Assembly: GCF_900403705.1 (NCBI RefSeq)
Contig: NZ_OUNR01000018.1
Location: 1-64,000 of the forward strand
Origin: Nitrospira lenta
Lineage (GTDB): Bacteria > Nitrospirota > Nitrospiria > Nitrospirales > Nitrospiraceae
DNA: 64,000 nt
Reading direction: 5' to 3'
Both the position numbers and the translations under genes were made by a program. Of this stretch, positions 1,216 to 3,161 are shown piece after piece. The notes beneath the pieces are model-generated. The model did not search any database. It was not told the DNA's origin and saw only the letters and a list, made by a program, of their open reading frames with translations. Positions within the stretch are counted from its first letter, which is position 1, and every line of letters starts with the position of its first letter.

Positions 1216-1444
1216 CGCACTGCTATCCGTGCAACTCGTGTGTCGGTGCACGACAGACCTCTACCGTTATAGCAACCTGCGCGCACCGCGAAGGTCCGAT
1301 CCTTCGGAACCGTGCATTTAGTGAGTGATCTCGACTATTCGTTCACCTCAAAACTTCTCAGTCAGTTTGGAATCTGATTTGCAATCGTGACTCAGTAAGG
1401 GAACGGATGGTCCGATCGCCCTTGCTGCTTAAGGGAGGTTTTTA

Positions 1445-2461
1445 ATGGGTACACAGCATGTTGTGACGATGTTACCGGGAGAGGGCACCGGCCCTGAAAT
1501 TTGCGAAGCGGTCCGGCTGGTGATCGATGCGAGCGGCGTCGATATCAAATGGGAGTATGAGGAGATCGGACTGGACTGCTTGGAGAAACACGGCACGCTG
1601 CTGCCTGACAAGACGGTCCAAGCCATCGCCAAAAATAAGATCGCGTTGAAAGGCCCCACGACCACGCCCATCGGAACCGGTCACAAGAGCGCGAATGTGA
1701 CACTCCGAAAGGTGTTCGACCTCTATGCGAATGTGCGGCCGGCGAAATTAATCCCGGTGCTCAAACGGCCCTGGGATAAGATCGACATTCTGAATTTTCG
1801 CGAGAACACCGAAGACTGCTATGCCGCCATCGAGCATATGGTGTCGGACGAAGTCGCGCAATGTTTGAAAGTCATTACCTGGCCAGGCTCCTATCGCATT
1901 GCGGACTTTGCGTTTAAGTGGGCCAAAGCCAACGGGCGCAAGAAGGTCTACTGCGTCCACAAGGCCAACATCATGAAGATGACCGACGGACTCTTTCTCG
2001 ATGCCTTTCGGGAAGTCGCCAAGCAATATCCCGACATGGAGTCCGGCGACATCATCGTGGATAACTGCTGCATGCAGCTGGTGAGAAATCCGGCTCAGTT
2101 CGACTGCCTCGTGCTGCCGAATCTCTACGGCGACATCCTGACGGACCTCTGCGCGGGGCTGGTGGGAGGTTTGGGATTTGCGCCGGGCGCCAATGTCGGC
2201 GATGGCTGCGCGATCTTCGAAGCGGTACACGGCTCAGCGCCGAAATACGCCGGCCTGAAAAAGGTCAATCCTTCGGCCGTGCTGGTCTCAGGCATCATGA
2301 TGCTTCGCTGGTTAAAAGAGGATGCGGCCGCGGCCCGGATCGAGAAGGCCATGTTCGCCGTGCTCGACGAACGAAAGCACGTAACGTACGACGTCGGCGG
2401 CACGGCAACCACAGACGAGTATGCGCAAGCGATCGTGGACAAAATGCACGCGAAGGCCTGA
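1445..2461 (+). CDS. icd: isocitrate dehydrogenase, catalytic subunit (isocitrate/isopropylmalate family)
   Basis: Oxidative decarboxylation of isocitrate, or the reverse reaction in a reductive TCA cycle. Seen: the family N-terminus with PGEGTGPEI at 11-19, the substrate loop SANVTLR at 82-88, the RENTED motif after it, and the metal-binding NLYGDILTD segment near residue 225. Length 338 matches the short catalytic core. A strong Shine-Dalgarno (AAGGGAGG) lies just before the ATG. The next gene, 34 bases downstream, encodes what in Thermus-type enzymes is the C-terminal domain of the same polypeptide, so the two products probably work together. NAD versus NADP use cannot be settled by eye. 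Isopropylmalate dehydrogenase is the main alternative, disfavoured by the RENTED region and the neighbour. Confidence 0.88.
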   Translation: MGTQHVVTMLPGEGTGPEICEAVRLVIDASGVDIKWEYEEIGLDCLEKHGTLLPDKTVQAIAKNKIALKGPTTTPIGTGHKSANVTLRKVFDLYANVRPAKLIPVLKRPWDKIDILNFRENTEDCYAAIEHMVSDEVAQCLKVITWPGSYRIADFAFKWAKANGRKKVYCVHKANIMKMTDGLFLDAFREVAKQYPDMESGDIIVDNCCMQLVRNPAQFDCLVLPNLYGDILTDLCAGLVGGLGFAPGANVGDGCAIFEAVHGSAPKYAGLKKVNPSAVLVSGIMMLRWLKEDAAAARIEKAMFAVLDERKHVTYDVGGTATTDEYAQAIVDKMHAKA

Positions 2462-2495
2462 GCCTCCGCACACAGACTGAACAAGGAGATATCCA

Positions 2496-2846
2496 ATGCC
2501 AACGTTAACGGAAATCGCGAAAGCGACAAAGAAGAAGAGAGAGGTCACACTCGTCGGAATCGATATGTACATCATCACTGAGAAAGGCATCCCGAAATTC
2601 GATGAGATCGGAGCCTTTAAATGTGAATTCATTTCGAACCGCGGCACGAAGGTCTGGCCCGGGTTTGTGAGCCCCGATCTGCTGCAGGTCAATTGGTACC
2701 GCTGCCGGTTCATGGCCACCAAGAATGTGCAGGACGCGGACGTCAATGCGTTCCTGGACGCCCTGACGAAGAAGGGTTGGTGGTGGTCTGCGGCTCAGAA
2801 GCTGTGGAACTACGACGGCGAGCCAGGTTTCAGTAAGGCCTACTAG
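2496..2846 (+). CDS. stand-alone isocitrate dehydrogenase C-terminal domain protein
   Basis: A 116-residue protein whose body resembles the extra C-terminal domain of the long Thermus/Rickettsia-type isocitrate dehydrogenases: VGIDMYI near 20, ISNRGTKV near 46-53, WYRCRF near 67-72, and a final DGEPGFSKA. I recognise these from memory of the family; no alignment was run. It has its own ATG and a good Shine-Dalgarno (AAGGAGAT), and its frame differs from that of icd, so this looks like a true separate gene and not a single-base error. Its role is probably structural or regulatory for the enzyme encoded just upstream, with which it forms a two-gene operon closed by the hairpin at 2901-2938. Confidence 0.72.
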   Translation: MPTLTEIAKATKKKREVTLVGIDMYIITEKGIPKFDEIGAFKCEFISNRGTKVWPGFVSPDLLQVNWYRCRFMATKNVQDADVNAFLDALTKKGWWWSAAQKLWNYDGEPGFSKAY

Positions 2847-2900
2847 CGTCACACCTACGCCGTCGGCCAAAGCCGGCAGTCGAAAGATGAAGGGAGACCG

Positions 2901-2938
2901 CGATGCGCACCTCGCAAGATTTGAGGAGGTGCGCATCG
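2901..2938 (+). terminator. long perfect hairpin after the icd pair
   Basis: A perfect 13-bp inverted repeat (CGATGCGCACCTC and its complement) with a 12-base loop lies 54 bases after the second icd-operon gene. No T-run follows, so it may end transcription in a factor-dependent way or protect the mRNA 3' end. The rest of 2847-3161 shows no convincing gene. Confidence 0.5.
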
Positions 2939-3161
2939 ACTCCCGCCCCAGCAGCCAGGCAATTAGAAGATGGTGCCGATCACCCCTAAGACGGCTCCGC
3001 TATGACGGAGGCGCGCGGCAAGGAGCGTTTGTCCGCTCCGAGGAATTCACGACAATGTCCTTGAGCAGCACCCGCATTCTCAACACGATGACATATGCGA
3101 TCCCTCTCCTGGGTCAGCAAACCGCAGGAGTTATTGAACCGCCTCTGGATAGAGAATATCT

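Follow-up and report, generated by a model that had tools for sequence, protein, structure and literature searches.

The window analysed here, a 64,000-nucleotide stretch of the Nitrospira lenta genome, carries two adjacent genes on the forward strand that we assign to isocitrate dehydrogenase (IDH), one for a catalytic core and one for a small protein (Table 1). Each is preceded by a good ribosome binding site. The core gene ends with a TGA at 2459-2461, and the small gene lies in a frame offset by +1 with AAGGAG ahead of its ATG, in agreement with the preliminary description of this locus, which gave the small gene its own ribosome binding site and a different frame. We saw no separate promoter for the small gene in what was a weak test, and the hairpin that follows it is probably either the 3' end of a two-gene transcript or a processing site.

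Table 1. Features of the two-gene IDH locus, in window coordinates.
Feature	Position	Strand	Description and basis
Ribosome binding site region 5' of the core gene	1430-1444	+	AAGGGAGG; read from the sequence
IDH catalytic core gene	1445-2461	+	338 aa; subfamily III/IV type; PF00180 and residue table
Short clasp segment in the core	1820-1879	+	Y126-AAIEHMVSDEVAQCLKVI; alignment; location according to PMC3521221
Intergenic gap	2462-2495	+	34 nt; contains the AAGGAG ribosome binding site of the small gene
Stand-alone small subunit gene (IDH C-terminal clasp domain)	2496-2846	+	116 aa; PF18324, Foldseek and Q101/Y116 signature
13-bp hairpin directly 3' of the small gene	2900-2940	+	z -4.5; no T run

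The core belongs to the isocitrate/isopropylmalate dehydrogenase superfamily (PF00180), matching profile positions 2-348 of 348 with 337.8 bits (E 1e-100; cut-off 27). Its nearest solved chain is the Thermus IDH (2d1c), and it also matches the Xanthomonas, Methylococcus and human IDH3 enzymes. The substrate and metal residues S82, N84, R88, R98, R119, Y126, K173, D206, D230 and D234 are all identical to the E. coli set, which we take to be S113, N115, R119, R129, R153, Y160, K230, D283, D307 and D311, and in our residue table the substrate and catalytic residues are the same in every group compared, fused or split. The NADP determinants presumably lie at K344, Y345, V351, Y391 and R395 in E. 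coli numbering; four of these five are present in the core (K267, Y268, V274 and Y315), while E. coli R395 is not conserved. Thermus IDH, though NADP-dependent, retains just the K and the Y. The window core thus appears to be of the NADP type, and the use of NADP is suggested by these few residues. The same K/Y/V/Y pattern recurs in the split cores of Nitrospirota and Bacillota and in nearly all of those from Armatimonadota, and NAD-type determinants are found in the Bdellovibrionota split pairs and the fused Ignavibacteria enzymes.

The small protein is the bacterial IDH C-terminal domain (PF18324, Isocitrate_DH_C_bact), with the fold of the Thermus domain. It scores 56.2 bits against the profile (cut-off 25), carries the motifs SNRGTKVWPG, YRCRF and, at its very end, QKLW..DGEPGFSKAY, and has a single significant match among solved structures, namely residues 388-492 of 2d1c. 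When the protein was modelled alone with AlphaFold (pLDDT 87, pTM 0.76), 2d1c was also the only significant fold recovered by Foldseek (E 3.5e-6, prob 1.00, TMq 0.62). The profile and structure matches confirm the earlier proposal that the small gene encodes the IDH C-terminal domain as a separate cistron. In a sequence set gathered mostly by profile, used in place of an alignment whose members had been recruited by the SNRGTKVW motif, N48, R49, R69, C70 and R71 of this domain are nearly invariant in fused and split forms alike. Against the NCBIfam equivalogs for one-chain long IDH, PRK09222 and TIGR02924 (cut-offs 509 and 561), both products stay below the cut-off, the core with 394.8 and 321 and the small protein with 49 and 32 bits.

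PMC3521221 describes the C-terminal domain of Thermus IDH as a second, larger clasp above the short central dimer clasp. The short segment is retained in the window core (IEHMVSDEVAQCLKVI) and in fused and split cores generally, which have IEHM..VAQCLK in common in the alignment. In the core-only IDHs of Thermodesulfovibrionia-type Nitrospirota (L151-L154, L157, L158), a 20-residue insertion falls exactly in the clasp loop, as if these enzymes might supply a clasp of their own. We also modelled a Leptospirillia pair whose two genes happen to share a frame, reading the intervening stop as Gly. The AlphaFold model of this read-through chain (pTM 0.73) overlays 2d1c across 486 columns with a TMq of 0.87, as against at most ~0.69 for core-only structures, where the overlay is with one 2d1c chain (chain A), the read-through forces the two parts into proximity and AlphaFold may owe the pose to prior knowledge of 2d1c.

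A survey of Nitrospirota, as proposed in the preliminary description, found a core at least 81% identical in 39 of 296 genomes, and the same 39 hold an intact small gene, making the split general in the lineages of this phylum that have this core; none of the 296 has an intact core without an intact small gene, or the reverse. With small-gene starts picked by a simple rule, the gaps between core and small gene range from 10 to 74 nt, the frame offsets 0, 1 and 2 are all present, and AAGGAG or a similar sequence precedes the small-gene start in nearly all loci examined. Selection on the two genes is strongly purifying, with dN/dS values relative to the window of 0.02-0.08 (small gene) and 0.03-0.04 (core). 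That a fused gene was broken by a frameshift in sequencing or assembly, an outcome that would have undone the idea of a split, is excluded for practical purposes, because about 60 named loci share the layout of a stop followed by a separate small open reading frame with its own start and ribosome binding site, in all three frame offsets.

Small-gene remnants persist in four genomes that have no core, one with an internal stop (L147 in G175) and three as fragments (L148 in G189, L149 in G251, L150 in G261); these decaying genes in core-less Nitrospira relatives are a natural record of the loss of the pair. Regulation or exchange of partners, raised in the preliminary description, is conceivable. 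Most genomes have one cognate pair. Nitrospira moscoviensis has two different ones (L050 and L060), with cores 92% and 88% and small proteins 85% and 77% identical to those of the window, and partner exchange would be testable in this species. One Nitrospirota assembly (G268) carries, unlike its relatives, a fused long-form IDH (L003, a frame of 521 aa with 142 bits to PF18324), by horizontal transfer or through contamination.

A monomeric NADP-IDH (PF03971) is present in each of the 36 good genomes from the genus of the window, including the window genome itself (G000:C1:595389-597590), and the pair is therefore a second IDH in Nitrospira; at least 20 genomes of the genus lack both of its genes. 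The window genome has just two PF00180 genes, the core described here and one scoring as leuB-like. In Leptospirillia, none of the 17 genomes checked has the monomeric enzyme. PF00180 was searched in four of them, and three carry a further, longer gene besides the pair, which may be an E. coli-type IDH (cf. PMC2607301). In the fourth, G010 (99% complete), PF00180 and PF03971 detected no IDH besides the pair.

Beyond Nitrospirota, we sampled with PF18324 the phyla of G326 (Bdellovibrionota), G328 (Armatimonadota) and G329 (Bacillota), and found that the same phylum can hold fused and separate forms. The named genome collection returned 80 loci, 20 with a fused domain and 60 with the domain as a separate open reading frame beside the core, the latter comprising 58 from Nitrospirota, Bacillota and Armatimonadota and two from Bacteriovoracaceae. 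In every case where we recovered both genes, they sit next to each other on one strand. Two orders occur across four phyla: core then small in Nitrospirota, Dethiobacter-like Bacillota and Bacteriovoracaceae, and small then core in Armatimonadota and the remaining Bdellovibrionota. Simple fission of a fused gene yields only the former order, so the latter calls either for a rearrangement or for a two-gene state that is older. Two small Armatimonadota genomes (G713 and G709) have no PF00180 gene outside the pair and gave no PF03971 match, so that the pair would be their only IDH provided that the assemblies are complete. Inspection of flanking open reading frames by eye gave no gene neighbourhood shared across phyla, and no viral copies were found. 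A Bdellovibrionota genome (G370) has an IDH of the fused type that is broken up over two overlapping frames (L179/L234) in addition to a small-core pair (L187/L236).

On the core tree, the window core groups with IDH subfamily IV (Thermus and relatives), in a clade (98/95) that also holds the fused enzymes of Thermus type and the pairs of Armatimonadota. Fused and split forms are interspersed on this tree and stable within clades, of which two are fused, two core-small, two small-core and one core-only Nitrospirota. A single clade of all core-small pairs was rejected (p 0.004), a single origin of all split forms was disfavoured (AU p 0.016), and a single clade of all fused forms was not rejected by either the core tree or the concatenated tree (p 0.13 and 0.35). 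The pairs of Nitrospirota, Bacillota and Armatimonadota group with the small-core pairs of Bdellovibrionota on the domain tree (100/99) and on the concatenated tree (94/94), where the Bacteriovorax pairs are instead sister to fused Ignavibacteria enzymes (97/84). Residue 101 follows the same division: it is Q in 23 of 23 main stand-alone small proteins, and E in all 50 fused domains and in both Bacteriovorax proteins. A terminal Y is found in 22 of the 23, and the combination of Q101 and terminal Y is missing from fused domains. The trees thus show two or more lineages with split genes, of which one is old, and the Bacteriovorax split is apparently separate.

Among known enzymes, the NADP-IDH of Thermus thermophilus (2d1c) is like the window pair in core fold, active-site residues, clasp segment, PF18324 domain and predicted whole-chain overlay, but it is a single chain of 496 residues and its C-terminal domain is only about 30% identical to the small protein; in common with other fused forms it has E101 and a differing tail, in place of the Q101 and terminal Y of the stand-alone family. 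Subfamily IV, as defined in PMC3521221, comprises homodimers of one chain of 480-500 residues, with the clasp domain fused and lying across the dimer, whereas the window has two open reading frames, of 338 and 116 aa. The fused Kapabacteria/Ignavibacteria enzymes (L091-L100, L102, L104-L106) are 53-57% identical to the window pair in the core and 37-45% in the domain, and differ from it in being one chain with the NAD-type determinants D/I/A; on the concatenated tree they lie closest to the split pair of Bacteriovorax. Core-only IDHs (Thermodesulfovibrionia-type Nitrospirota; Xanthomonas 6m3s and 6ltf) have a homologous core, 51-56% identical in the Nitrospirota, and our profile and sequence searches found no clasp domain in the Thermodesulfovibrionia-type core-only genomes. 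Human and yeast NAD-IDH (IDH3) is heteromeric and has a related core, but both of its subunits match the core, the extra subunits of IDH3 being full-length core paralogues and not a separate clasp domain. The monomeric NADP-IDH of the same genome has the same presumed reaction and belongs to a separate Pfam family of one-chain proteins of about 740 residues. In the open literature searched, we found no mention of the Pfam or NCBIfam names of the clasp domain and no report of a two-gene IDH split. The accessible part of PMC3521221, the paper that defines subfamily IV, deals with one-chain members only, and the papers found do not establish a function for the clasp domain in Thermus-type IDH.

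The reading that we favour, and consider quite probable, is that the pair is a two-subunit IDH of the NADP type in which the clasp acts in trans, probably as an α2β2 complex. The two genes would form one bicistronic unit. The 338-aa chain would be the complete catalytic core, which dimerises and carries both active sites, and the 116-aa chain would be the C2 clasp domain of a Thermus-type (subfamily IV) IDH that can fold alone and dock onto the dimeric core above its short central clasp loop. The resulting enzyme would be a two-piece counterpart of the one-chain Thermus homodimer, in which the small chain may be needed for full activity or stability. Complex formation, stoichiometry and NADP use are here predicted from sequence and models, and the co-occurrence of adjacent genes, which points towards an obligate two-subunit enzyme, may also reflect linkage.

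How much the split itself matters is a separate issue. It is quite conceivable, at a little short of an even chance, that two genes simply make the same enzyme with no functional consequence, either by neutral fission or as an unfused ancestral state. This would be compatible with a two-subunit IDH and concerns only whether the split matters. The intermingling of fused and split forms on the core tree and their stability within clades are in keeping with it, as are the occurrence of the split with both NAD-type and NADP-type cores and the apparently separate split of Bacteriovorax; the two gene orders and the Q101/terminal-Y signature suggest, on the other hand, that the small chain has become adapted, although shared ancestry alone could explain them. 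We find it far harder to uphold a link, suggested in the preliminary description, between the split and the reductive, carboxylating direction of IDH in autotrophs. Leptospirillum and members of Nitrospira do use the reductive TCA cycle (PMC2607301, PMC8407350; the latter for Nitrospira), and one Leptospirillia genome relies on the pair as its only detected IDH. The longer gene of the other three Leptospirillia could however be an IDH as well, and the link does not hold up as a general explanation: Nitrospira, in which all good genomes have the monomeric enzyme, can do without the pair, and the pair is also present in Armatimonadota and Bdellovibrionota, phyla that are not marked by the reductive cycle and that include NAD-type cores. 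We therefore regard it as very improbable.

Somewhat less remote, but still unlikely in our judgement, is a regulatory role for the small protein as a subunit that can dissociate. The core would then be active alone, and binding would switch activity, cofactor preference or direction, perhaps together with a metabolite bound at the conserved residues of SNRGT and RCRF. The near-invariance of the five polar residues goes beyond what a structural clasp might need, a gene of its own would permit separate dosage, and the two pairs of N. moscoviensis can be seen in the same light. Yet the domain cannot leave in the fused forms, which makes it unlikely that dissociation is needed for its basic role, the weak promoter test gave no sign of a separate promoter, and the strict pairing, together with the decay of the small gene after core loss, fits an obligate subunit at least as well. 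A broader proposal in the same vein sees the stand-alone clasps as a dedicated subunit family of ancient origin, marked by Q101 and a terminal tyrosine, which spans at least four phyla in two gene orders and binds the core reversibly to control assembly, cofactor handling or direction. It strikes us as equally doubtful; if true, IDH activity could depend on how much there is of one protein relative to the other and not on phosphorylation.

For the favoured two-subunit enzyme, the separate clasp protein means that core and clasp can be expressed apart, mixed and swapped to probe the role of this domain in a textbook enzyme. Annotation benefits as well, as the small gene can be labelled an IDH subunit in Nitrospira, in Leptospirillum relatives, and in some Armatimonadota, Bdellovibrionota and Bacillota.
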